From: a virus
DNA length: 26,878 nucleotides
Virus record (IMG/VR): IMGVR_UViG_3300017782_000172
Location: 1 to 26,878 of that record
Strand: one strand, 5' to 3'
In this document: piece by piece, positions 2,219 to 17,507 of the stretch
Position numbering within the stretch: position 1 is the first letter of the stretch
Layout of the letters: each line of letters opens with the position of its first letter
The notes under the pieces: generated by a model
Told to the model about the DNA's origin: nothing
Seen by the model: the letters and a program-made list of their open reading frames with translations, nothing else
The model's database searches: none
Program-made: the position numbers and the translations under genes

Positions 2219-3148
2219 ATGGTACAAGGCGCACCATCGGCTGCTCCCGGTCACGGTAATTTTCCGAATAATCGGTTCAGCCCAACTATCTTCGCTGAGA
2301 GTTTGATCTACTTTAACCGGATCTACTCTGTATGTGACGAGATCACGAATACCAAGTTTGATGGCACTATTGCTTCTCAAGGTGATCGTGTGGAAATCTT
2401 GAAAGAGCCTGAAATCAACGTGTTTGATTATCAGCGTGGACAAGAGCTTCCAATCCAGTTCTTAGATGATGACTACATTCAAATGAACATTGACCAAGCT
2501 AAAGCATTTAACTTCTTGGTTGACGACATTGAGAAACACATGTCACACATCGACTGGATGACTACGGGTAAAGACACTGGCTTGTATAAGCTTGTTAATG
2601 CTAAAGATGCTAACATCTTACAATACATGCATGACAACGCTACTGACGCAAGTGATTTAGGTAGTGCTGGCTCAGCAGTTACCGTCGGCTTCGGCGGCGG
2701 CGCAGCTATCACCCCTCTTGACGTAGTTAACCACTTAGCAACCCAACTCGATGAGAATGATACTCCTCGTGATGATGGTCGCTTCTTCCTTGCTTCACCA
2801 GCTTTCTACGAAGCTCTACGTAAAGAAGACAGCTCCCTCATCAATGCAGAAGTAACTGGAGATCCTATCTCTGCTCTTCGTGATGCTAAGTATGGTTTAG
2901 GCAATGCAGGTATTAAGCTTCACGGCTTTAACATGTACATGTCTAACAACAACCCAACTAGCTCATCTAGTGACGTTACTGTGATGGCAGGTCATAAAGA
3001 TGCTGTAGCAACCGCTACTGCTATTCTTAACACTCGTGTTGTTCAATCTGAGCGCACGTTCGGTGATCTGTGTCAAGGTCTAATCGTTTGGGGCCGTCGC
3101 GTCCTTAAAGCGGAAGATCTGTTCACTGGTTACGTTTCAATTGCTTAA
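2219..3148 (+). CDS. Major capsid protein
   Basis: About 309 residues from the chosen start. It follows the scaffold gene and has the look of a HK97-fold coat protein: an N-terminal arm with FSPTIFAESLIYFNRIYSVC, an early beta strand region (GDRVEILKEPEINVFDYQ), a loop with DYIQMNIDQAKAFNFLVDDI, and a C-terminal domain with a peptide binding-like pattern (RTFGDLCQGLIVWGRRVL). An upstream in-frame ATG at 2207 would add four residues, but TGGAG (2208-2212) lies six bases before the ATG at 2219 and no ribosome site serves 2207, so 2219 is preferred. The product forms the icosahedral shell around the DNA. Confidence 0.85.
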   Translation: MVQGAPSAAPGHGNFPNNRFSPTIFAESLIYFNRIYSVCDEITNTKFDGTIASQGDRVEILKEPEINVFDYQRGQELPIQFLDDDYIQMNIDQAKAFNFLVDDIEKHMSHIDWMTTGKDTGLYKLVNAKDANILQYMHDNATDASDLGSAGSAVTVGFGGGAAITPLDVVNHLATQLDENDTPRDDGRFFLASPAFYEALRKEDSSLINAEVTGDPISALRDAKYGLGNAGIKLHGFNMYMSNNNPTSSSSDVTVMAGHKDAVATATAILNTRVVQSERTFGDLCQGLIVWGRRVLKAEDLFTGYVSIA

Positions 3149-3166
3149 TCTAGGAGGTACTACATT

Positions 3167-3649
3167 ATGGCTACAATTACTGTAACTAATCAAAAATCAG
3201 GTAGTACTGGCAATTACTTCGGTCTTAACAAGCCTATGCAGTTTGTTATTGATCTAGGTAAAGCAGCTGCTGATACAGTTAATGCTTACTCAACAGGCGA
3301 CACTCTTCTTTGTGAAGTAGTTGATCTCCCTGCTGACATTCAGATTAAAGACCTTCACGCGGAAATCGTGGAAGCTTTACCTGCATCAAGCACTACCAAC
3401 ATCGGTACAACTTCAGCTGATCCCGACGAATATGTTGACGGTCAAACTGACGTTGCTGTCGGCCAGTTCACTGGATACGTTGCTGTCACTTACCCTGAGA
3501 TTATCACCACTGCGAAAACACTTTATGTGCAAGTCGCTAATGCTGGTGCAATCACTTCCGGTAAGATCGCTGTAATGGTTGATGCGGATATCCCGCTTTC
3601 AGCTGTTCCAGAGCGTGCAACATATCGCGATGATTACCCTAATGCATAA
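3167..3649 (+). CDS. Small beta-rich capsid-associated protein (decoration or head protein candidate)
   Basis: 160 residues, rich in Thr/Val/Ala with alternating hydrophobic residues, so probably mostly beta strand (for example VGQFTGYVAVTYPEIITTAK and the run after it). A strong AGGAGG site (3152-3157) lies ten bases before the ATG, consistent with high expression. It is placed directly after the capsid gene and before a stable hairpin, so it probably shares the abundant capsid transcript. A decoration, fibre or head-stabilising role is inferred from size, strand content and position; no family motif is recognised. Confidence 0.7.
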   Translation: MATITVTNQKSGSTGNYFGLNKPMQFVIDLGKAAADTVNAYSTGDTLLCEVVDLPADIQIKDLHAEIVEALPASSTTNIGTTSADPDEYVDGQTDVAVGQFTGYVAVTYPEIITTAKTLYVQVANAGAITSGKIAVMVDADIPLSAVPERATYRDDYPNA

Positions 3650-4423: not shown

Positions 4424-5949
4424 TGGGTGAAGATTTTGGAAGCCAGGTTATAAGCTGTCAAGGTGGCCTCGTAGAGTCAGAAGATGTCCTACGACAAGGC
4501 ACAGAGCTTATAGGTACTGCAACAAACTTAATCAATATGGAACCCTCCTTAGAAGGCGGCTATAAGCGCGTCCTAGGTTACGACAAGTTCGACTCTAACG
4601 CGGTTCCAGGCACAGGGCCCATCCTCGGCGTAGGTGTGGCCTTAAGCGGAGTCTTCGCAGTGCGTAAGGTAAGCACTGATAACCAGATATTCTACAGCAC
4701 AGGCTCAGGCTGGTCAGCAGCGCTTAATACAGCTGCTAGAACAGGTAGTGTCTCTAAAGCAAGATTCTTAAGTTTTGCTTTCTCAGAGCCTGCAATTATT
4801 CAAACTGATGGAGTTAACCCTGCTTGGTATTACAATGGAACTACTGACACTCTTATTAACGGTACAGGCGCTCCCACAGCTCCTAAGTATGCATTATACT
4901 TTAAAGGACGTGTACTACTGGCCCCAGCTTCAAACACATCTTCTGTAGCTATTTCTGCTCCTAACGCAGTAACAGACTTTGACGGGGCTAACGGCGCATT
5001 AGAGATTAACGTAGGTGATGAGGTTGTTGGTGTTGCTAGCTTCCGCGACATCCCTTACATCTTCTGTAAGAACAGTATATTCAAGCTCGTCGGTTCAACC
5101 ACAGCTGACTTCCAAATCCTTGAAGTTTCTAAAAACATAGGTTGCGTAGACGGAGACACCATACAAGAGGTAGCAGGAGATTTAATCTTCCTAGCACCAG
5201 ACGGCTTCCGAAGCGTGGCAGGTACAGAGCGCATCGGTGATGTAGAGCTCGGCTTATTTAGCCAGCAGATTCAACCTTCGGTGCGTGATTTAGTAACAAC
5301 ATACGGAGCAGGTAAGTGGTGCTCAGTGTATGTGCGGAAGAAAAACCAATATAGAGCACTCCCTTTAGACACGAGTGCAGGTGATGATGATGCAGAAGGA
5401 TTACTTGGAACATACAAAGACAACGGCTACGAGTGGGCTAAGCTTAAGGGTTTCCCTGCTTATGTGGCAGATGCGGCTTATGACGGCACGAATGAGTGCG
5501 TCGTATTTGGCCATTACTCAGATGGTTACGTTTATGAGATGGAAGAGGGCAACGATAGAGATGGATCTGCTATTACTTTCAACTATTGGACTCCACATCT
5601 AACATTCGGTGATGCTGAAATACGTAAAGTTTTCCACGAAGCTACTATGTACTTCAAAGGTTCTGGTGCTTCAGATGTTAACTTAGATTTAATCTTAGAC
5701 CTAGCAGACCCTGACGTGCTCCAGCCAGCTACAATCCCCTTCACAATCGACGCATCTTCAGTAGTCTGGGGAAGCTTTGTTTGGGGAGCCTCTAACTGGA
5801 CAGCAGCAGCACCTAACCCGAAGGTAAAAGAATTATTAGTCGGCTCCGGCTTCACAGGGCAATTCAGATTCAGTGGTTCACACACTGGTAAAGCACCTTT
5901 TAGAATTGACAATATGCAGATAGAAGTAGCTGCGAAAGGACGAAGATAA
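4423..5949 (+). CDS. Tail nozzle/stopper protein (tail tubular B or P22 gp10-like)
   Basis: 508 residues, start coupled to the previous stop by TAATG. The N-terminal part has NLINMEPSLEGGYKRVLGYD, the Gly-Tyr-x-Arg-x-x-Gly-Tyr pattern seen near the start of podoviral nozzle and stopper proteins. The rest is strand-rich with regularly spaced Trp/Phe and Gly, suggesting a beta-propeller like those of T7 gp12 and P22 gp10. It would close the tail channel, retain DNA and carry the fibres. Downstream is a fibre gene, again with TAATG overlap. The family name is inferred; the tail role is better supported than the exact homology. Confidence 0.7.
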   Translation: MGEDFGSQVISCQGGLVESEDVLRQGTELIGTATNLINMEPSLEGGYKRVLGYDKFDSNAVPGTGPILGVGVALSGVFAVRKVSTDNQIFYSTGSGWSAALNTAARTGSVSKARFLSFAFSEPAIIQTDGVNPAWYYNGTTDTLINGTGAPTAPKYALYFKGRVLLAPASNTSSVAISAPNAVTDFDGANGALEINVGDEVVGVASFRDIPYIFCKNSIFKLVGSTTADFQILEVSKNIGCVDGDTIQEVAGDLIFLAPDGFRSVAGTERIGDVELGLFSQQIQPSVRDLVTTYGAGKWCSVYVRKKNQYRALPLDTSAGDDDAEGLLGTYKDNGYEWAKLKGFPAYVADAAYDGTNECVVFGHYSDGYVYEMEEGNDRDGSAITFNYWTPHLTFGDAEIRKVFHEATMYFKGSGASDVNLDLILDLADPDVLQPATIPFTIDASSVVWGSFVWGASNWTAAAPNPKVKELLVGSGFTGQFRFSGSHTGKAPFRIDNMQIEVAAKGRR

Positions 5950-7088
5950 TGACCTCATGGTATACTAGACAAGCCTCAGCAAACATTGCTAATGGTAATA
6001 CAGCCGATGCGGATGACATTGATTTAGAATTGGATGCCGTAAAAACAGGTATAGACAACTCAATGAACTCTTCTACAGGCCACGCTCATGATGGTACTGC
6101 AGACAATGGCCCTCAGATCAGCCTCACAGCGTCCGTGACAGGCACTTTAGGCGTAACTAACGGAGGCACCGGAGCGGCTACTTTCACTGACGGAGGCATA
6201 CTCCTAGGCTCAGGAACAGGAGCTTTCACAGTTACAGGACAGCCAACTAACGGACAGTTACTTATAGGCTCTACTGGAGTTGATCCAGTATTAGCCACAC
6301 TTACAGCAGGCGAAGGGATAGATATTACAAATGGTACAGGTACTGTTACGATTCTTGGCGAAGACGCTACAACTAGCAATAAAGGTGTGGCCAGCTTTGT
6401 TTCTGCTGACTTTAGCGTGTCTTCTGGCGCTGTTAGCCTCGGAGATGACGTTGTAAAGGACATTAGCACTGACTCAGGTGCAGTAACGCCAGCTACACAT
6501 ACGTTTACTATAGCAGGCGGCACAGGTATTGACACTAGTGGCTCAGGCGACACAGTTACACTGGCGGTTGACTCCACAGTTATTCAGACAGGGGATGACC
6601 CTCAGTTTGGTGGTACGGTTACTGTTGGTCAGGATATTGTACACTTAGCAGACTCAGACACTAAGATTCGATTCACTAACGACAAGATAGAGTTCCAAGC
6701 AGGCGGCACTACATTCTTAGAGCTTACTGAGGACACAGCAGATGATGCTACGTTTAATGTTCCAGTCTACGCATTCCCTAAAGTAATTGAAGACACAGGT
6801 GCAACAAACACGCTCGCTCTAACAGACGCTAACACAGTACAGCGCATGAACCGAGGAACAGCACAAGCAGTTACAATCCCTACTAACGCTTCTGTAGCTT
6901 TCACAGTAGATGAAACACAAATTGCCTTTCTACAGCAAGGAGCTGGTGCAGTAACTATTACAGGCGATACAGGCGTTACAGTCAACGGAACTTCAGCTGG
7001 CTCAGTAACTATTAATGCTCAGTACAAGTCATGCTTAGCTATTAAGGTAGCGACTGATGAGTGGATCATTGTAGGAGATGCTAGCTAA
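5949..7088 (+). CDS. Tail fibre-type protein
   Basis: 379 residues, low in Lys/Arg and rich in Gly, Thr, Ala, Val and Asp. Residues about 1-60 form a probable attachment region ending in STGHAHDGTADNGPQI, a motif common in phage tail fibres near the hinge. Then come collagen-like and beta-repeat segments (GVTNGGTGAATFTDGGI; LLGSGTGAF) as in side-tail fibres, and a C-terminal beta domain ending NEWIIVGD-like (DEWIIVGDAS). It would project from the tail and contribute to adsorption. TAATG overlaps link it to both neighbours. No chaperone or endosialidase domain is seen. Confidence 0.75.
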   Translation: MTSWYTRQASANIANGNTADADDIDLELDAVKTGIDNSMNSSTGHAHDGTADNGPQISLTASVTGTLGVTNGGTGAATFTDGGILLGSGTGAFTVTGQPTNGQLLIGSTGVDPVLATLTAGEGIDITNGTGTVTILGEDATTSNKGVASFVSADFSVSSGAVSLGDDVVKDISTDSGAVTPATHTFTIAGGTGIDTSGSGDTVTLAVDSTVIQTGDDPQFGGTVTVGQDIVHLADSDTKIRFTNDKIEFQAGGTTFLELTEDTADDATFNVPVYAFPKVIEDTGATNTLALTDANTVQRMNRGTAQAVTIPTNASVAFTVDETQIAFLQQGAGAVTITGDTGVTVNGTSAGSVTINAQYKSCLAIKVATDEWIIVGDAS

Positions 7089-8026
7089 TGCTTAATCTTC
7101 TTGGGCTATACGGCGCAGGAGCGCGGAAAGACTTCAGCTTAACCGAGTATGAAGGCACCGGCGCTGCGCAAAGTATTGTCACAGGAGTAGGCGGCTTCAG
7201 TACAGGAGGCTTCGCTTGGCTTAAAAACCTCGACTCTTCTGACAGTCATTACCTGTTTGATACGGTAAACGCAGCTACAAACTATACTACAAGTGACACA
7301 AACGCAGCTCAAGCGACAGATGCAAACTCTCTCACGAGTTTTAACGGAGGAGGGTTTAGCGTAGGCACTAGCACTAAAGCTAATGATTCAGGCGACACTT
7401 TCACAAGCCTTTCTTGGGCAGAGCGTGAAGGGTACATGGACATTGTTTCATACACAGGCTCAGGGTCTAACCAAAGCGTGGCGCACAGCTTAGGCGTGGC
7501 TCCGAAGTTCGCCTTAGTGAAAGATTTAGATGCAACTGCTGACTGGGCAGTCTGGCACCCAAGTATTGATGTAGGGCTAGATCGTTATATCCTAGAGCTT
7601 AACAACGCAGATGCACGTGTTCTCTCTACTACAGCATTCCAACAGACAGCACCAGACAGCACTAACCTTTATGTAGGCGCTAACACGCAAACTAATGCTA
7701 ATACCAATGACTACATTGCTTACTTGTTTGCTGAAGTAGCAGGTTCCAGTAAGTTCGGTTCTTATGCAGGGAACGGGGGAAGCCAATCAATTACTGGTAT
7801 AGGCTTTAAACCTACAATCGTTCTTATTAAAGATGTAGGTAATTCTGTTGACTGGACGCTCATGTGGGAGAGAACAGCAGGAAGTGTCACCTACATACGC
7901 CCGAATACTTCAGATATAGGGCAGAACACCTCTAACGCCCAGATCACTGACGATGGGTGGGACTTCAGCGCAGGAGGCTTCCAAAACACGACAAGCAGGA
8001 CTTATATATACGCTGCGTGGAAATAA
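7088..8026 (+). CDS. Receptor-binding candidate with three DUF7483-like repeats
   Basis: 312 residues. A unit starting Y-x-G-x-G-x-x-Q-S-(I/V) and running to a (L/V)K-(D/N) turn and a Trp appears three times: near residue 21 (YEGTGAAQSI ... WLKNLD), near 122 (YTGSGSNQSV ... LVKDLD ... WAVWHPS) and near 224 (YAGNGGSQSI ... LIKDVG ... WTLMWER). The pattern with NDYIAYLFAEVAGSSKFGSY between units resembles the DUF7483 domain of marine phage fibre and minor tail proteins. It ends with YIYAAWK. Position after the fibre gene and before the ejection genes suggests a distal adhesin. Family naming is from memory of the pattern. Confidence 0.65.
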   Translation: MLNLLGLYGAGARKDFSLTEYEGTGAAQSIVTGVGGFSTGGFAWLKNLDSSDSHYLFDTVNAATNYTTSDTNAAQATDANSLTSFNGGGFSVGTSTKANDSGDTFTSLSWAEREGYMDIVSYTGSGSNQSVAHSLGVAPKFALVKDLDATADWAVWHPSIDVGLDRYILELNNADARVLSTTAFQQTAPDSTNLYVGANTQTNANTNDYIAYLFAEVAGSSKFGSYAGNGGSQSITGIGFKPTIVLIKDVGNSVDWTLMWERTAGSVTYIRPNTSDIGQNTSNAQITDDGWDFSAGGFQNTTSRTYIYAAWK

Positions 8027-8029
8027 TAC

Positions 8030-8058
8030 TTGACAAAACCTTTAAAATATGGTACAAT
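8030..8058 (+). promoter_or_regulatory. Consensus sigma70 promoter with extended -10
   Basis: TTGACA (8030-8035), a 17-base spacer, and TACAAT (8053-8058), preceded by TG at 8050-8051 for an extended -10. It fills the only gap (8027-8063) in the tail-ejection gene block. The start site would be about 8064-8066, on or beside the ATG of the next gene, so its transcript would have no leader. Confidence 0.75.
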
Positions 8059-8063
8059 AAGAT

Positions 8064-9491
8064 ATGGCAGATAGAACAAGCTCACAGTTTCAACAAATGT
8101 ATACAGACCCCACAGCACGTGCGGGTATGTCCTATAACGAGCTCATAAGCACTGGATTCACTCCTCTAGAGGCCGCCACAGCTGCTAGTGGATTTAGCCA
8201 AGCTTTCGGCGGAGGGCGTGCGCAACAGTATCGCCAGCAAGCAGGCCTAACAGACACAGGTATCGTGCAGCAGTATGCAGCACCTACTTTACCTCAGTAC
8301 CAGCAAACTCAGATAACTAATCCGCAACTGCCAGCGGGAACAGAGTTTACACCAGAGATGATCACACCTCAAGCTGGGGAGTTTATTGATCCTAATGCAT
8401 ATAACATTCAACAGCCTATCACAGCAGCTCAGCCAGCCCCTATAGGCCAAGTATCTACCATACAGGGCACTCAAGCAGCAGCTCCGCAAGCTGTAGACGC
8501 TGAAGCTATTGCAGCAGGCGTGTCAACCGACTCAGCAACCTACGATCCAACATTGACAACTGCAGTAGATCCTATGCAAGCTGCTCAAGGAGCTATCTCA
8601 GAGATGGCTACTGTACAAGGCCAGCTTAAGCAGCTCTACTCAGACTTCGATGAAGCAGCTCCACCAGCGTGGGCTCAAGGTGCTATTAATAAGGCTGAAT
8701 CAGTTATGTCAGCAAGGGGCTTAGGTGCTTCTTCAATAGCTACCACAGCTATCGTACAGGCTGTCCAAGAGCAGGCAATTAACATAGCAGCTACTGATGC
8801 AAGCTCATACTTCCAAATGGATATGACTAATCTTAATAACCGTCAGCAGGCCAACCTAGTTAACTTCCAAGCTAGACAACAGAACATGCTGACTGATACC
8901 AGCATCCAGAATGCAGCCTCCCAGTTCAACGCTCAGAGCATGACTCAAGTAGAACAGTTTACAGCACAGCTGATTGGCAACATTAAGATGCAGAACCAGC
9001 AGCTGACAACTCAAGTGGAGACTTTCAATGCAGCTGAAGAGAACAAGATTGCAGCCCAGAACGTGGGTAACGAAATCGAAGCTGCGAAGTTTGATAAGAA
9101 CATGGAGATGGCGGTTAGTCAATATAATGCTGGCATGGAGTTTAATCGTCAGCAGTTTAATAGTAATATGTCTGCTACTATCGATCAGGCTAATGTACAA
9201 TGGCGTAGGAATCTTAATACGGCCAATACAGCATCTATCAACGCAGCTAACCAAGCAAACGTAATGAATAAGTATAACCTGTCTAGTGTATCCATGAATA
9301 ACATGTGGCAGGCATTCAGAGATGAGGCTGCGTGGGCATTCACCGCGTCAGAGAACGAGAAGCAGCGCACATGGAACACAGTTCAAGCTGCGAACAACAG
9401 GCAATTTAACAGCCGTAACGATGAAACGTGGCTCAGCGACTTAGGTGAGATGGGCGGACAATGGTTTGGCAAGAATGTGTTAGGATTATAA
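8064..9491 (+). CDS. Gln/Asn/Ala-rich internal virion (ejection) protein
   Basis: 475 residues, very rich in Gln, Asn and Ala, almost without Cys. Residues about 160-475 are predicted to be long helices with repeated Q/N/A/M heptad-like stretches (for example NFQARQQNMLTDTSIQNAA), as in the internal core proteins of marine podoviruses. An N-terminal region of about 150 residues is Pro/Gln-rich and probably disordered. It would travel in the capsid and be injected with DNA. The ATG at 8064 has no clear ribosome site and coincides with the predicted start of the 8030-8058 promoter; the next in-frame ATG (8097) also lacks one. No enzyme motif is seen. Confidence 0.75.
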   Translation: MADRTSSQFQQMYTDPTARAGMSYNELISTGFTPLEAATAASGFSQAFGGGRAQQYRQQAGLTDTGIVQQYAAPTLPQYQQTQITNPQLPAGTEFTPEMITPQAGEFIDPNAYNIQQPITAAQPAPIGQVSTIQGTQAAAPQAVDAEAIAAGVSTDSATYDPTLTTAVDPMQAAQGAISEMATVQGQLKQLYSDFDEAAPPAWAQGAINKAESVMSARGLGASSIATTAIVQAVQEQAINIAATDASSYFQMDMTNLNNRQQANLVNFQARQQNMLTDTSIQNAASQFNAQSMTQVEQFTAQLIGNIKMQNQQLTTQVETFNAAEENKIAAQNVGNEIEAAKFDKNMEMAVSQYNAGMEFNRQQFNSNMSATIDQANVQWRRNLNTANTASINAANQANVMNKYNLSSVSMNNMWQAFRDEAAWAFTASENEKQRTWNTVQAANNRQFNSRNDETWLSDLGEMGGQWFGKNVLGL

Positions 9492-9492
9492 T

Positions 9493-9867
9493 ATGAGTTT
9501 ATTTACCACTGCTTTAGATTTTGTGCGAGATGGGTTAGACACTGTAGCTGATGTAGGCAGTGAGTTCTTTGACAGCTTGATTGACTCTACCGGAGACGCT
9601 CCTAGAGAGATCGCTACACGCCCTGTAGAGGCTACCCAACCTGCGGATTCTCCCTTGACAAGCTCTGTATTAGCCTCTATTAATAAACTTATAGATAAAG
9701 ACCGTAAAGAGTCTACTACATACACAGAAGAAGGCGCTTTCATGAGCACAACACCCTCACGCTCGCTCTCAGCTACAACTGAGCCTGTAGCATCTGTAAA
9801 CATTAAAGAATTAGATAGGGTATGGTACACACGTATGAAAACATTTGCTGAAGGAGGCATGGAATAA
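9493..9867 (+). CDS. Small virion-region protein of unknown function
   Basis: 124 residues starting one base after the previous stop; its own stop overlaps the next start (TAATG). The N-terminus (FTTALDFVRDGLDTVADVGS) could form an amphipathic helix. The middle is Thr/Pro/Ser-rich and probably disordered. The C-terminus (ELDRVWYTRMKTFAEGGME) is helical. It lies among internal protein genes, so a minor virion or assembly role is likely by position only. An equally long antisense frame exists but lacks a ribosome site and neighbours on its strand. Confidence 0.7.
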   Translation: MSLFTTALDFVRDGLDTVADVGSEFFDSLIDSTGDAPREIATRPVEATQPADSPLTSSVLASINKLIDKDRKESTTYTEEGAFMSTTPSRSLSATTEPVASVNIKELDRVWYTRMKTFAEGGME

Positions 9868-10370
9868 TGGTAGAAGAAATTAATAAGTTCTCAGCACCTG
9901 CTCCTGGCTTCGGCCTCACTCAAGCTCCAGGTGAGATGCCTTATGAGCAGCCGCCTCAGTTCACTGACTTAGAGGAAGCTTCGGAGTTCCTGTTCGATAA
10001 CCTTGTGAAGCCTAAGGTAGCTGGCAGATTGATCCACTTGCTCAAGAAAGGGATGCCTGCAGAAGCTTTCGTAAATATGATCATGCAAGAGGGCACTCAA
10101 GGCGGTAAGTTTGGTCCTGATTTAGCAATGCTGCTGACACCTCGGATGTTAGCCACTGTAGTTGCTATTGCGCAGCGGGGAGGACTAAAGCCAGCTAAAG
10201 ACTTCCGCATTCTGAATGAGCATGAGCTTGTTGAAGATGTGCTTGGAGAGATTGGTGAGCCTGAGGTAACCGAAGAAGAAGTTATTGAGGAAGCTGAGGA
10301 AATGGAAGGCTTTATGGCAGGTGCTGAAGAAGCTCCTGAAGAAGTAACTGAAGAAGGGTTCATGGTATAA
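9867..10370 (+). CDS. Small virion-region protein with acidic tail
   Basis: 167 residues. After a Pro-rich start (SAPAPGFGLTQAPGEMPYEQ), residues about 35-115 are helical and fairly hydrophobic (FLFDNLVKPKVAGRLIHLLK; LLTPRMLATVVAIAQRGG), followed by a strongly acidic Glu-rich tail in which GFM and EEVTEE recur. The start overlaps the preceding stop (TAATG). Its place between internal protein genes suggests a minor virion or assembly protein. I do not recognise a family; the acidic tail could serve as a charge tether, but that is speculation. Confidence 0.7.
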   Translation: MVEEINKFSAPAPGFGLTQAPGEMPYEQPPQFTDLEEASEFLFDNLVKPKVAGRLIHLLKKGMPAEAFVNMIMQEGTQGGKFGPDLAMLLTPRMLATVVAIAQRGGLKPAKDFRILNEHELVEDVLGEIGEPEVTEEEVIEEAEEMEGFMAGAEEAPEEVTEEGFMV

Positions 10371-10373
10371 ATT

Positions 10374-11498
10374 ATGGCTAAAAGTTTTTTAAAAGGTTTC
10401 ACTGAAGGCTTAGGCGATCAATATACTCGTAAGCTGGAAGCTGATGAGAAGAGAGCCCAGAATGCTGATAAGTGGAAGTATAAAGAAAAAGAGATTAATG
10501 CTGAGCTTGAAAACGAGAAAGCTCTTAAAAAGATTGAGGATGATAAAGAATTAGCTACTCAAGCTAAGAAAACACGTATGCTTGACCCCTCAACACCTAT
10601 GGCAGAAGTTTTGAAGCTAGCGGCGGAAACAGGCACAGACACTAAAGAGATTAAAAACTTACGTGAAATACGCGAAGCAGAGCTTATTAATCGCGGAGAT
10701 TTTAACTTTATTATAAACCGCAAAAACAATTTTGAAAGCGCTTATAGAGAAGCCCGCCCTGAGGCTACTGATGATGAGATAAACCAAGCTTACAATACTG
10801 AGGTAGTCGGCAAGAAAACAGGCACCAAAACTACAGTAAACATAGCCCCGCCAACTGGGGAAGCTTTTGATGCACCTTCTAAAGACATAAGTGATGCGCG
10901 TACTATGGCAGATATCACAGAACAAGCGACTAACCACATGGTAAAAATCGTAGGCTTCTTGGATGAGTTCCCTAGTATTACAGGTTTTGTAGGTAAACTC
11001 AAAGGCCAAGCAAGTAAGTTAAGTAATGTCTTTAACGAGCAAGGCTGGGACGGACTTTCTAGCGCAGCGGAAGGCTTAGGTTTGAACGAAGAAGAGTTTG
11101 ACGCGTTCACAAGGTTTGTATCCGCAGGCCAGCAGCTTAATTTAATTATGGCTAGCCCGCTTGTGAAAGAGTCCCGCATAACTGACACGGAACGCGCCAT
11201 GTCTGAAGTCATCACTTCTGTGCTTGGTGGGACAACCTCAGCTAAAGAAGCAAAGATTAAGATTGAAGAATTAATGGATACTGTAACCGAAACACGTTAT
11301 AATGCAGTTAGAACCTTAAAGACTGGTAAAATGCTTAGTGAAGGAAACGAAGCGTTTTATGAGGCTAGACAGCCTAAAGAAGAAGCTGCTCCTGAAGCTC
11401 CAGCTAAGCCTGCAGGTCTTCCTGAAGATGCAAGACAAGCAGCTGACGGCGACTGGTATGTAGAACGTAATGGTAAATTTATGAAGGTTATTCAATAA
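10374..11498 (+). CDS. Coiled-coil internal virion protein
   Basis: 374 residues. Residues about 15-70 are a charged Lys/Glu coiled coil (KWKYKEKEINAELENEKALK), the middle is helical, and the C-terminus after an Ala/Pro/Glu linker ends in a short domain ARQAADGDWYVERNGKFMKV. That last pattern (ARQA-x-DG-x-WYV ... K-x-x-x-V) recurs at the C-terminus of internal virion proteins of several podoviruses as I recall. Its start is four bases after the previous stop and its stop overlaps the next start. It probably forms part of the ejected core with its 1110-residue neighbour. Confidence 0.7.
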   Translation: MAKSFLKGFTEGLGDQYTRKLEADEKRAQNADKWKYKEKEINAELENEKALKKIEDDKELATQAKKTRMLDPSTPMAEVLKLAAETGTDTKEIKNLREIREAELINRGDFNFIINRKNNFESAYREARPEATDDEINQAYNTEVVGKKTGTKTTVNIAPPTGEAFDAPSKDISDARTMADITEQATNHMVKIVGFLDEFPSITGFVGKLKGQASKLSNVFNEQGWDGLSSAAEGLGLNEEEFDAFTRFVSAGQQLNLIMASPLVKESRITDTERAMSEVITSVLGGTTSAKEAKIKIEELMDTVTETRYNAVRTLKTGKMLSEGNEAFYEARQPKEEAAPEAPAKPAGLPEDARQAADGDWYVERNGKFMKVIQ

Positions 11499-14400
11499 TG
11501 GTAAAATTTGAGCCTGTAGACTATAATCCTTTTGAAGAGGAAGATACTTCCATTAAGCTTGAAGAGGTAGACTACAATCCTTTTGAGGAGACACCAGAGC
11601 CCTCAGCGGTGGAAACACCAGTCGAGAGAGACTTAGGCTTAGCGGCTAAGCTGACTTCAGGTATCCCTGTAATCGGCCCTCTTATGGGTATGCGGGGCGT
11701 AAGCGAGCATGAGCGCATAGAACAGCGTAAAGCAGCTTTAAACACTATGCCGGAAGGTTTCGTCCCTGAGACAGATCTCTCAGCACACCAACGAGGCTTT
11801 ATCCAGCGTTCTGATGAGCTCACAGAGAAGCAACGTAAGTTTTCTGAGTATTATCCTGAAGGCGAGCTTAAGGCAGTTCCCTACGAATGGGACACTCTTA
11901 CAGGTAAGAAACAAACTGAAACAGAAATATATAGAACATCACCAGACCAACCTTGGCGGCCGCTTGATGAAGAGGCGGTAACGTTAGAGGATGTAGTGGA
12001 GTTTACTTATGATGATGCGCCTGTGATTGCAGCTGAAGTCGGCGCTTTCTACCTAACAGGTGGAGTTCCTTTAATCAAACGTGCACTAGCGACTGCATCT
12101 ACAGTAGCGTTAACAAGAATGGCGAGTGAGCAAGCTGAAGAATTAGCTGGCTACCAGGATACTCCTTTAATGGGGCAAGTCCAGAAAGCAGGTATTGAGG
12201 CTGCAGCTACATTAGGTACTGAGCTAGTTGCTGGACCTTTAGGTGCTGGTGTTCGAGGTACTATCCCTACAACTAAAATGACAAAGGCTGCTTTAGAAGA
12301 AGCAAAGTTAGTTGTGGATTACATTGAGCAAGAAGGCATTGAAACAAACTTAACTGCTGGCCAGATAAGCAGCTTTCTACAGCGCGCAGAAAATAAAGCA
12401 GAAGCTATTACTGGCTTAATAGGCGCGAAGAAGGATGAACAAGCTAAAGCTATGATTGAGGCTATGGAGCGAGATTATGTGGAAATGCTCTCTCAGGCAG
12501 AGCCTCTTCTATCTGATGCCACCCTACGCAGCTCGATTGACAAACAAAAAGTTTCACTACTTGATGACTTAAGCAAGCCTGCCACTACACTAGAGCAGGG
12601 TGCTGAGGCAGCTCAAGAAGGTTATGCTAAATGGGTAACTGAGACTGAAACACAGATAGATGATATCTACAACGAAGCTCTAGGATACGCTGACGAGGTT
12701 ACATTTAACCTAGCACCTCTGAAAGCAAACGCAAATGAATTGAAAGCTAAAGCTGCAGCTCCGTTCCGCCAAACAATTACTGAAGTGAACGAGGAGACTG
12801 GGGAAGAGGTACTTAAGGTGGTCGATCGGACATTTACCACAAGCGAGCAGAAGTCCCTAAATCAGTTCTTAGATGTGATTGAGGAAGTTGATCTCCTGCA
12901 AGAGGGTGTCCAAGGCTACGAAGCGCTTAAAGGACTGCGCAGTAAATTAAATGATTTTGCCTACCCTAGACAAGCGGGCGAAGTGCCCTCAACAGTGCAG
13001 AAGTATGCACAAGGGCTGTCAGCTAATATAACCAAAACTATAGAAAAACCTTTAGGAGATTTCAGCCAGGAGTTTTCTGATACATGGTTAAAAGGTAATG
13101 TAGCACACAAAGAGAAAATGAAGGTTCTGCAAATGAATGCTGTTAAGAACTTACGCGGAGCTGAAGAGCTCTCCACCGTAGTTCCTGACCTGTTTGACCC
13201 GAAGCGGCTAACCTCAACTAAGCAGATATTAGAAGCGTTACCTGCAGATAAACGCACTGAGACTGTGGATGCTTTCAAGGCTTATCTACTGTCGGATTTA
13301 GATAACTTAGGAACTAATCTTAATAAGTTCATTGGAGGTGACGGCCCTGAGGTGTTAGGCTTAGCCTTGTCTCCTGAAGAGGTAACTACCTACAGACTAG
13401 TAGCTGATCAAGTAGCTCAAATCAATAATGGAATAACTTCGAAGCTTCTAAAGCGCGCAGACTCTGCAGCGCAAAGGGCCTTAAGCATGGCTCAAGATGC
13501 GACTTCGGTTGAGATGGATGAGTTTGTTAAAGAGTTTGGTGAAGAAGGACGCACAGCTCTTAAAGCAGCAATTATGAAAGACCTCTCAACGAAAGTAGTT
13601 AAGACAACTGGCGCAGCGACCGATGCAGCCGACTTAGTTACACGCGGGACTAAGCGAGGCATGGACTTCCAAGCTTATGTCAAAGAGGTTGACAGCTTAA
13701 AGAAAAAAGACTGGTTTACTAACGTGTTTACCGAGCCTGAGATAGAATCACTGTCTCGCAAGCAAGCATTCTCTGCGTTTATTTCAGCAGGCCAGGCAGA
13801 CCCTGGTGCAAGCCTCCAAGCAGCTGAGCTAGTCGCTACAATCTTATCAACACAAGCTTTGTCTGATCCTCGTAAGTGGACTTTAGCTTTCCTTGATCTT
13901 AAAGCCCAGAACCGTCTAGCTAAGATGTTTGTTAGCCCAGTTTTAGGCAACATTATACTAAGCGGCAGAGGCGCAGCTCCTGAAGATGCTACTAAACAAT
14001 TAGTACGTGGTTCAGCTTTATTCCTAAATCGCCTTACAGATTATATGCAAGACGTTAGAGTTGTTGAGGAGGATTCCACAGACACTTCCAGTGAGTTGGA
14101 GCGTTTGAAGGGTTTAGACATGGACAAGTACGCTCCTGAGTATCGTAATTATTTAGAGCAGCGGATACAGAAGCTTGAAGATCTTGATGCTGGCCAAGGA
14201 GACGACACAATAGGAGGCGGAGCAGACTCAGATTTTATGGCCGCCCCTGAGATGGGCGACCTAGGCAGCTTCATGGATAAGTACGACATCCCTGAGAAGC
14301 CGATGACAGCTCTAGACGAAGAGCCTGCTAAAGAGGGCTCTATTGAAGAAGCCTTGAACGCAGCTGTAGACACCAGCGGTGTAGACTACGGCGTAATGCG

Positions 14401-14830
14401 TAAGATTGCAATGGCTGAGAGCAGCTTGAACCCTAAGGCAAAAGCTAAGACCTCCAGCGCAAGCGGTTTATTCCAAATAACTTCAGGCACGTGGAAGAGC
14501 CTTGTGAAGAAATACGGGGCTGACTTAGGTGTTGCTATGGGTGATCGCATGGATCCTATCGCCAACGCTAAGATGGCTGGAGTGCTTATGAAGGAAAATA
14601 AAGACGCAATAGAACGTAAGCTAGGACGTGAAGCCAAGCCAGGAGAGCTCTACGCTGCACACTTCTTAGGCCAGTCAGCCGCAAAGAAACTATTAACAGC
14701 TCCTGACTCAGCTATCGCTGCAGATAAATTCCCAAGTGCCGCTAAAGCAAACAAGCCTATCTTCTATAAGAACGGCAAGGCTCGCACTGTAGCAGAGGTT
14801 AAGCGAGTGTTAGAAGCTAAAGTATCATAG
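11498..14830 (+). CDS. Ejection protein with C-terminal lytic transglycosylase
   Basis: 1110 residues, the largest gene here. The N-terminus carries VDYNPFEE twice (residues 7-14 and 24-31). Residues about 165-250 contain hydrophobic Ala/Gly/Val-rich stretches that may enter the membrane. A long helical region follows to about residue 900. The C-terminal domain from about residue 962 is a soluble lytic transglycosylase: catalytic Glu974 in MAESSLNP, then ASGLFQIT and LYAAHFLGQSAAKKLL. By analogy with T7 gp16 (where this domain is N-terminal) it would locally cut peptidoglycan and help form the trans-envelope channel. The start overlaps the previous stop (TAATG); the stop overlaps the endolysin GTG. 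Confidence 0.88.
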   Translation: MVKFEPVDYNPFEEEDTSIKLEEVDYNPFEETPEPSAVETPVERDLGLAAKLTSGIPVIGPLMGMRGVSEHERIEQRKAALNTMPEGFVPETDLSAHQRGFIQRSDELTEKQRKFSEYYPEGELKAVPYEWDTLTGKKQTETEIYRTSPDQPWRPLDEEAVTLEDVVEFTYDDAPVIAAEVGAFYLTGGVPLIKRALATASTVALTRMASEQAEELAGYQDTPLMGQVQKAGIEAAATLGTELVAGPLGAGVRGTIPTTKMTKAALEEAKLVVDYIEQEGIETNLTAGQISSFLQRAENKAEAITGLIGAKKDEQAKAMIEAMERDYVEMLSQAEPLLSDATLRSSIDKQKVSLLDDLSKPATTLEQGAEAAQEGYAKWVTETETQIDDIYNEALGYADEVTFNLAPLKANANELKAKAAAPFRQTITEVNEETGEEVLKVVDRTFTTSEQKSLNQFLDVIEEVDLLQEGVQGYEALKGLRSKLNDFAYPRQAGEVPSTVQKYAQGLSANITKTIEKPLGDFSQEFSDTWLKGNVAHKEKMKVLQMNAVKNLRGAEELSTVVPDLFDPKRLTSTKQILEALPADKRTETVDAFKAYLLSDLDNLGTNLNKFIGGDGPEVLGLALSPEEVTTYRLVADQVAQINNGITSKLLKRADSAAQRALSMAQDATSVEMDEFVKEFGEEGRTALKAAIMKDLSTKVVKTTGAATDAADLVTRGTKRGMDFQAYVKEVDSLKKKDWFTNVFTEPEIESLSRKQAFSAFISAGQADPGASLQAAELVATILSTQALSDPRKWTLAFLDLKAQNRLAKMFVSPVLGNIILSGRGAAPEDATKQLVRGSALFLNRLTDYMQDVRVVEEDSTDTSSELERLKGLDMDKYAPEYRNYLEQRIQKLEDLDAGQGDDTIGGGADSDFMAAPEMGDLGSFMDKYDIPEKPMTALDEEPAKEGSIEEALNAAVDTSGVDYGVMRKIAMAESSLNPKAKAKTSSASGLFQITSGTWKSLVKKYGADLGVAMGDRMDPIANAKMAGVLMKENKDAIERKLGREAKPGELYAAHFLGQSAAKKLLTAPDSAIAADKFPSAAKANKPIFYKNGKARTVAEVKRVLEAKVS
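11516..11590 (+). repeat. Direct repeat encoding VDYNPFEE twice
   Basis: Two 24-base copies (11516-11539 and 11567-11590) match at 22 positions. Both differences are synonymous (Tyr TAT/TAC and Glu GAA/GAG), so the peptide is kept exactly. They lie at the N-terminus of the ejection protein. Confidence 0.85.
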
Positions 14831-15456
14831 TGAAGTTCCTAACATACTTAATACTATTCCTTACAGCGTGTAGGCCAGAGCTAGCAACTCCAGTTACAAC
14901 CAAAGAAGAAAAGAACGCAATCATCGACAAGACAGTAAAGCTTGAAGGTGGCTACGTAAACAACCCTAACGACTCAGGCGGCCCTACTAAGTACGGCATT
15001 ACCCTGAGGACACTACAGAACTACCGCAATGACCCTAACCTTGGCGCTAACGACGTAAAGAAGCTAACTAAAGAAGAAGCTAAAGATATCTACGGTAAGC
15101 TCTACTTCGATGATGCTGGCGTAGGTTCCTTGCCTAAGTCTATCCAAGACTTTATGTTCGACATGAACGTACACCACGGCATGGGACGCTCAACAAAGAT
15201 ACTCCAGGAGAGCCTTAATGAGCTGGGTGCGGATATTGCTGTAGATGGCGGCTTAGGTCCTGCTACTAAAGGCGCACTGGATGATTACCTAGGTGACTCT
15301 GAAGATGGCGACGAAAGAGATCGCAAAGAGAAAGCCTTACGTAGGCAGCTATTGCGGAGACGCAAAGAGTTCGTGAGGAAGCTCGCTAAGCGGCGGCCTA
15401 AGGATAAGGAGTTCCTAACTGGATGGCTAAACAGAATCAACAAGTTTGAGGTATAA
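14830..15456 (+). CDS. Endolysin, GH108 family, with lipobox-like N-terminus
   Basis: 208 residues. Residues 39-58 hold the GH108 lysozyme-like signature E-G-G-Y-V-N-N-P-x-D-S-G-G-P-T-K-Y-G-I-T with Glu39 as the likely catalytic acid. The second half (DFMFDMNVHHGMGRSTKILQ, then VDGGLGPATKGALDDYL) matches the peptidoglycan-binding domain that usually follows. The enzyme would cut glycan strands at lysis. Residues 1-14 are a hydrophobic export signal ending LTAC, a lipobox with Cys14, so it may be exported or lipidated rather than released by a holin. It starts with GTG overlapping the upstream TAG, with no obvious ribosome site and no downstream Met before the domain. Confidence 0.88.
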   Translation: MKFLTYLILFLTACRPELATPVTTKEEKNAIIDKTVKLEGGYVNNPNDSGGPTKYGITLRTLQNYRNDPNLGANDVKKLTKEEAKDIYGKLYFDDAGVGSLPKSIQDFMFDMNVHHGMGRSTKILQESLNELGADIAVDGGLGPATKGALDDYLGDSEDGDERDRKEKALRRQLLRRRKEFVRKLAKRRPKDKEFLTGWLNRINKFEV

Positions 15457-15457
15457 C

Positions 15458-15652
15458 ATGGATAAACTATTAAACATTCTTACAGAGCTTAACTGGCTTA
15501 AAGTTATTGTGCTGCTTCTAGCAGCCTTAGTACTGGCTGTACTGGACGGCTTGTTCCCTGTAATTATATTAATTGGACTTGTCCTCTACCTTACACCAAA
15601 GCTTCGGCCTGTTATGTGTGACTGGCTTAAGAGTCCTTACTGGAGATTATAA
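15458..15652 (+). CDS. Small holin-like membrane protein
   Basis: 64 residues from the ATG at 15458, which has GAGGT (15448-15452) five bases upstream; the longer TTG frame from 15446 is not needed. Residues about 13-30 and 34-46 are very hydrophobic (WLKVIVLLLAALVLAVLDG; FPVIILIGLVLYL) with a short DGLFP turn, so a hairpin of two membrane segments is likely. The C-terminus is basic and Trp-rich. It overlaps no gene but begins two bases after the endolysin stop. Size, topology and position fit a holin or pinholin; sequence alone does not prove it. Confidence 0.75.
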   Translation: MDKLLNILTELNWLKVIVLLLAALVLAVLDGLFPVIILIGLVLYLTPKLRPVMCDWLKSPYWRL

Positions 15653-15657
15653 GCAAC

Positions 15658-15684
15658 AAAAAAGGCCCCTTAGTTGGGGCCTTT
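15658..15684. terminator. Bidirectional intrinsic terminator between convergent operons
   Basis: AAAGGCCCC (15661-15669) pairs perfectly with GGGGCCTTT (15676-15684), loop TTAGTT. The A-run 15658-15663 gives a U-run for - strand transcripts; on the + strand TTT and TTTA follow. It lies 6 bases after the last + strand gene and about 20 bases from the last - strand gene. Confidence 0.92.
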
Positions 15685-17213: not shown

Positions 17214-17507
17214 CTAGTCCCATAGGTTAGTATAATGCTTAGTAAAAAGGCTCAGGACTTCTTCTTTTTCTTGGAGAAATGATTCACTGAATGTGTTGAA
17301 TGCTTCATCTTCATACTGGCTGAAAAAGTCTGCCATTCTTATAAGTATATCATACCATTCTTTCTCTGTCAAGCCTAAAGGATGGCCATGTGAGTTTTCT
17401 GCTAAATATTTTAACCTAGGAGCTAGGAAAGCTGCCGTAGCTACGTCAAGGTTCCATGAGTCTATTGCTACTTCGCTAATGAACAAACGCTTCAGTTTTT
17501 TAAACAT
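17214..17507 (-). CDS. Small helical protein of unknown function
   Basis: 97 residues. After a basic N-terminus (FKKLKRLF), the body LAPRLKYLAENSHGHPLGLT, then EKEWYDILIRMADFF follows a pattern I have seen in uncharacterised phage proteins (Arg-Leu-x-Tyr-Leu ... Gly-x-Pro ... Glu-x-Trp-x-x-Ile-Leu-x-x-Met). It is probably all helical and cytoplasmic. It overlaps the upstream gene by 16 bases, with GGAGG rather far from the ATG. Function unknown. Confidence 0.65.
   Translation of the reverse strand: MFKKLKRLFISEVAIDSWNLDVATAAFLAPRLKYLAENSHGHPLGLTEKEWYDILIRMADFFSQYEDEAFNTFSESFLQEKEEVLSLFTKHYTNLWD
17344..17370 (-). promoter_or_regulatory. Promoter candidate with short spacer and extended -10
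   Basis: On the - strand: TTGACA (17370-17365), 15-base spacer, TGA then TATACT (17349-17344). The short spacer weakens it but the TG extension may compensate. It lies inside the 97-residue gene and would serve the small acidic genes downstream. Confidence 0.3.

Follow-up and report, generated by a model that had tools for sequence, protein, structure and literature searches.

The locus and its promoter

The stretch of DNA analysed here, referred to throughout as the window, measures 26,878 bases and is a fragment of a marine-type phage; its structural genes form a block read rightward, and its replication and nucleotide genes one read leftward. In the structural block a tail-fibre-type gene (7088-8026, + strand; PF24299/DUF7483) is followed by a 475-codon gene (8064-9491, + strand), and the 37-base gap between them holds an entire promoter sequence in the same orientation. 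The -35 hexamer TTGACA (8030-8035) begins 3 bases behind the upstream stop at 8026 and is followed by a 17-base spacer (8036-8052) with an extended -10 TG at 8050-8051, by the -10 hexamer TACAAT (8053-8058), preceded by TG-G, and by a purine-rich five-base discriminator, AAGAT (8059-8063), in which no Shine-Dalgarno (SD) sequence can fit before the start codon ATG at 8064-8066. Direct reading confirms the coordinates and spacing given for these elements in the first-pass annotation, and the site at 8030-8058 has the make-up of a sigma70 extended -10 promoter, with 11/12 consensus bases, 17-base spacing and the TG. The first base of the -10 box (8053) lies 11 bases from the ATG (8064).

The 475-codon gene is the first behind this promoter. 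Its protein has no Pfam or PHROGs match, the AlphaFold2 model was too poor for a fold search (pLDDT 53.6), and a scan of bacterial genomes gave no relative; we infer an ejection protein from the position of the gene only, and an earlier suggestion that the product is an abundant virion protein finds no support in these searches or in the model. The rest of the putative sub-operon (9493-15652, + strand) comprises ORFs at 9493-9867, 9867-10370 and 10374-11498, an SLT transglycosylase gene (11498-14830, + strand), a glycosyl hydrolase 108 endolysin gene (14830-15456, + strand) and a small last ORF. A terminator-like hairpin (15661-15684, + strand, also readable on the - strand) could end the sub-operon. 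No terminator was found in the gap before the 475-codon gene, so that upstream transcription probably reads through the gap into this gene, and the internal promoter is read as securing or boosting the sub-operon 8064-15652.

A T7-like single-subunit RNA polymerase (PF00940) was found neither in the window (G000, a fragment) nor in the contigs of two relatives, L002 (G001) and L003 (G002), the T7 control being positive, and the host polymerase is therefore the likely user of the promoter. A promoter for a phage RNA polymerase was considered and rejected, as there was no polymerase gene and no repetition of the promoter, a second copy being absent from both the window and G001. The best promoter of G001 (39736-39708) stands ahead of the entire structural operon and shares its type with the window site, so the sequence predicts no difference in timing. 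The idea of the first-pass annotation that the promoter separates ejection genes from head and tail genes in time is thus left without support, given this shared host sigma70 type and the lack of a phage polymerase in the genomes searched.

A hexamer match alone means little, since a simple hexamer scan of the first 20 kb gave 30 sites against 26.1 expected in shuffles, with no overall excess; for the same reason the weak matches of 7-10/12 before other orthologues were taken as noise. The 8030 site is one of only two in that scan with 11/12 consensus bases and the TG. With a weighted matrix, the approximate weights of which we set ourselves, it ranks second among the sigma70-type sites of the window and had its equal in 0/20 dinucleotide shuffles, and the other top-ranked sites lie within opposite-strand genes or farther from any start codon. 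A chance match, in a gap conserved for some other reason such as a binding site or an RNA signal, would have the merit of accommodating a spacer that is 16/17 identical to that of L002 for no known reason. We consider it very improbable in view of the rank of the site in the window and the 20 shuffles, and because six phages that belong to one clade have the promoter at this position; the lack of an Rfam match speaks against an RNA signal. Searches for tRNA and tmRNA likewise returned no matches.

The best promoter-like site of the window is TTGACA-17-TGA-TATACT on the - strand (17372-17336), with an in-frame ATG at 17336 following after 7 bases. This ATG lies inside a 97-codon ORF (17214-17507), which has a strong SD at its own start and of which no homologue was found in G001 or G002; it is possibly an internal leaderless start, or due to chance. 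On the - strand of G002 (40140-40112) the sequence TTGACT-17-TGA-TAGGAT stands six bases before the ATG of a 102-codon ORF, with a score inside the chance range.

Start codon and predicted transcription start

The calculated SD pairing energy before ATG 8064 is -2.8, compared with a median of -6.0 for the window genes (rank 30/34), which bears out the earlier remark that the gene has no clear ribosome site. Energies of -4 or better are found for 76% of the window genes and for 18% of random positions, and the L002 orthologue also has an energy of -2.8, where medians are near -6. The major capsid gene was dismissed as a further SD-less case, its first ATG having been wrongly chosen; ATG 2219 is preceded by GGAGA.

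The ATGs at 8097 (Met12) and 8127 (Met22) are in frame with the gene, and a true start at one of these would give the mRNA a leader of 33-63 bases. Such a start is hardly credible, as neither Met is shared with L002, which has Leu at the Met12 position, and as no in-frame ATG, GTG or TTG lies between the L002 start ATG and a conserved block, TDPTxRAG, just behind the start. This block (residues 14-21, TDPTARAG in the window and TDPTSRAG in L002) straddles Met12/Met22, and no SD precedes either codon. An N-terminus at Met12 or later, which the first-pass annotation had set against its own reading, therefore gains no support from the relative, and on sequence evidence the start codon of the 475-codon gene is fixed at ATG 8064. 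AlphaFold2 models residues 10-40 better than any other part of the protein (pLDDT about 76-84), which fits a real N-terminal segment. The proteins of the window and L002 have an N-terminal segment of ~80 residues (8064-8300 and 2989-3220, respectively) that is absent in L003, L231, L234 and most orthologues.

Counting from the -10 box places positions 6, 7 and 8 at 8064-8066, the very range in which transcription had been proposed to start. In the survey as quoted in PMC5730371, starts at positions 6, 7, 8 and 9 after the -10 box make up 8, 55, 29 and 7%; there is a strong preference for starting at a purine that follows a pyrimidine, and starts shift upstream where the discriminator is purine-rich (PMC5730371). 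In the window A8064, preceded by T, is at position 6, T8065, preceded by A, at position 7, and G8066, preceded by T, at position 8. The positions and the purine/pyrimidine rules, which are those of E. coli, together make A8064, which leaves an intact 5'-AUG, and G8066, by which the AUG is lost, the likely predicted starts. The T before A8064 and the purine-rich discriminator both favour position 6 under the same rules (PMC5730371).

Leaderless expression of the 8064 gene is, on balance, what we would predict. Against it, position 6 takes 8% of starts and position 7 takes 55% in the survey (PMC5730371), and in four of the six promoter carriers the -10 box is followed by a leader of 20-59 bases. 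In Streptomyces, most documented leaderless genes have six or more bases from -10 to start (table in PMC3160421), and the five bases from -10 to AUG are at the short end of leaderless spacing. A start shifted by two bases would delete the AUG, and the choice of start site would thus set protein output.

The survey figures also bear on an alternative in which the promoter is real, but most transcripts start at T8065 or G8066 without the full AUG; its task would be to supply the genes from 9493 onward, with the 8064 gene expressed mainly from read-through mRNA. Positions 7 and 8 account for 84% of starts in the survey as cited in PMC5730371, and G8066, a purine, has a pyrimidine before it and a G behind it, an arrangement favoured according to that paper. 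T8065, however, is a pyrimidine after a purine, which is disfavoured, and the purine-rich discriminator is expected to draw starts upstream; the read-through mRNA would itself offer no SD for the 8064 gene, and in L002 the spacing is unchanged, though a shift of 1-2 bases would rescue a leader or the AUG. We regard this alternative as unlikely, and keep to a start at A8064 for a useful share of the transcripts as the favoured prediction.

Conservation and history of the promoter

L002, the nearest relative, is a 59,093-base contig with the gene order of the window and a protein 56% identical to that of the 475-codon gene. Across the 37-base gap, 32/37 bases are identical between the two, whereas identity at the four-fold degenerate sites of seven flanking genes is 37% (258/694; Fisher p = 2e-9), and the remaining window/L002 gaps align less well, with many indels. 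The L002 elements are a -35 TTTACA, a -10 TAAAAT and a discriminator AAGCT, and the distance from -10 to ATG is five bases in both phages. Loss of the hexamers in close relatives, by which the first-pass annotation would have judged its reading wrong, is not seen in this closest one, and the conservation of the gap that it looked for in related phages is found, both in L002 and through the presence of the promoter in the clade described below. The spacer (window 8036-8052, L002 2955-2975), 16/17 identical in this pair, is not conserved in L003, L231, L234 or L240; such conservation between the window and L002 appears to exceed ordinary promoter needs, and a second signal may overlap the spacer. 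The window and L002 are one sister pair, so their five-base spacing is one evolutionary observation.

The L002 contig has a perfect 77-base direct repeat near both its ends (27-103 and 58595-58671), with the second copy at the end of the ribonucleotide reductase gene; it may be the trace of circular joining or of the duplication of a gene end.

A nucleotide search of phage records gave no match to the window, so the comparison rests on IMG/VR contigs and distant isolates, and more than 90 orthologues of the 475-codon gene were examined for the promoter. It also precedes the orthologue in L003, L231, L234 and L240, where the -35 is TTGACA at the same place as in the window, the -10 is TATAAT (TAAAAT in L234) and the distance from -10 to ATG is 25, 24, 20 and 59 bases, respectively; the other orthologues examined have no comparable promoter. 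A TATGG is common to the window, L002, L003, L231 and L240. In a tree of 23 dereplicated proteins the six promoter carriers form one clade with L232 and L233 (support 98/97), in which the latter two are without the promoter and the window and L002 are sisters (support 100/100). This distribution requires the promoter to have changed state at least twice, for instance through a gain and a loss. Outside the clade the gene lies close behind a small gene, or overlaps it, usually with a purine-rich SD and without a comparable promoter. The comparison with relatives supports a real, functional promoter, as far as can be predicted, and by its distribution this promoter is a property of one phage lineage, with the leaderless geometry confined to one branch, that of the window and L002, where it is probably derived.

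The relatives also serve to weigh a further explanation, that the gene is translated without an SD from the long upstream mRNA, by way of an unstructured A/U-rich region or by re-initiation after a three-codon frame (8049-8060), with a promoter that is weak or additive. The gap is A/T-rich and the promoter is not preceded by a terminator; most orthologues are read from the upstream operon with no promoter at the gene; and the entire gap, spacer included, is conserved beyond what a plain promoter needs. Yet the conserved bases match both hexamers, their spacing and the extended -10, and four relatives keep the promoter with a different leader and spacer, while the TATGGTA motif itself accounts for the mini-frame. 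Translation from the long upstream mRNA seems to us rather improbable.

The explanation that we favour, to which we assign a probability of roughly 60%, is that the 37-base gap would act within the structural operon as an extended -10 promoter for host sigma70, from which transcription would begin at AUG 8064 or within two bases of it. The resulting mRNA would lack a 5' leader and carry the ejection-type and lysis genes of the sub-operon 8064-15652. A8064 would be the first base in a useful share of the transcripts, and translation of the 475-codon gene would be leaderless, from an AUG at the very 5' end and without SD pairing. The parts of this explanation that we infer are promoter activity, the exact 5' end, leaderless translation and the extent of the operon. 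The better reading of the site is that of an internal promoter for a putative ejection-lysis sub-operon, turned leaderless in one branch.

Recurrence in phages and comparison with known systems

The spacing between promoter and AUG was compared in 118 consensus extended -10 promoters listed from IMG/VR, a non-random sample in which each has an ATG 2-30 bases behind the box, an ATG that opens a frame of at least 60 codons being taken as a gene start. Among the matches listed, gene starts make up 14/24 of the ATGs at 5-8 bases, 6/14 at 9-10 (20/38 for 5-10 bases) and 3/20 at 11-16, and their share is higher again from 18 bases on; with bins chosen after seeing the data, the difference from 11-16 bases gives a Fisher p of 0.01 for 5-10 and of 0.005 for 5-8. 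In a separate sample, gene starts account for 35/120 of the ATGs that lie exactly five bases behind the box and for 92/2087 of nearby ATGs, again among the matches listed; the nearby ATGs are a lenient control, as genes often follow promoters. The genes of the close-spaced group are diverse, and the close -10/AUG geometry recurs in phages, in both respects among the matches listed. This pattern of spacing is consistent with selection that favours leaderless starts and disfavours very short leaders.

A wider proposal, which we put forward tentatively, is that leaderless expression from promoter-AUG fusions is common but unmapped in lytic environmental phages, selected at 5-10 bases with 11-16 avoided, and that the promoter persisted in the present lineage as its message changed from leadered to leaderless. 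The bimodal spacing in the phage promoters listed suggests that such genes are frequent and countable, and the relatives with the same promoter and varied leader lengths allow the shift from leadered to leaderless to be studied directly.

Orthologues of the 475-codon gene occur in phages of alphaproteobacteria and of gammaproteobacteria, and among isolates the closest at the protein level are HMO-2011-type phages and their relatives. The HMO-2011-type phages (HMO-2011, HTVC033P and the CRP phages) resemble the window in having an orthologous structural block, in which tblastn matches to the 475-codon gene, at 25-42% identity, are followed by a similar gene run; the likeness is partial and distant, and we make no claim of group membership. 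The HMO-2011-type isolates examined have no promoter before the gene, and HTVC033P has the purine-rich GGGAGATA before the ATG. Papers on HMO-2011-type phages make no mention of promoters or RNA polymerase. In Pelagibacter phage HTVC033P (L139) the region upstream of the orthologue (5673-7787) is annotated with two 2OG-Fe(II) oxygenase genes and a putative ferrochelatase; the window and L002 have tail-fibre genes at this position, which looks like a site of gene exchange.

TA-led (leaderless) bacterial genes, as defined by Zheng et al. 2011 (PMC3160421), carry a -10-like box whose first base lies some 10-12 bases ahead of the start codon, and the 8064 gene, with 11 bases, an AUG start and no SD, has the same arrangement. 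Mapped leaderless mRNAs number 375 in Caulobacter (PMC4117421) and 171 in Sinorhizobium (PMC3616915), and these, like the TA-led genes, share with the window a -10-like box at a similar distance and the lack of an SD. All of these differ from it in being cellular genes, and the bacterial 5' ends were mapped by RNA sequencing, whereas that of the window gene is predicted from the sequence.

Our literature search found no paper on leaderless late phage genes, which is no proof of absence. To our knowledge very few leaderless phage messages are known, mainly that of the lambda repressor. We take the window site to be a genuine conserved promoter abutting an AUG, and the 8064 gene to have a probable leaderless phage message. 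The lambda cI mRNA from PRM is alike in its sigma70-type promoter, placed for a start at the AUG, and in its lack of an SD, with six bases between -10 and AUG where the window has five. It differs in that cI is a lysogenic repressor, whereas the window gene belongs to a structural operon, with no sign of lysogeny seen in the window, and in that the relatives of the window, unlike the cI/PRM case, keep the promoter with a leader.
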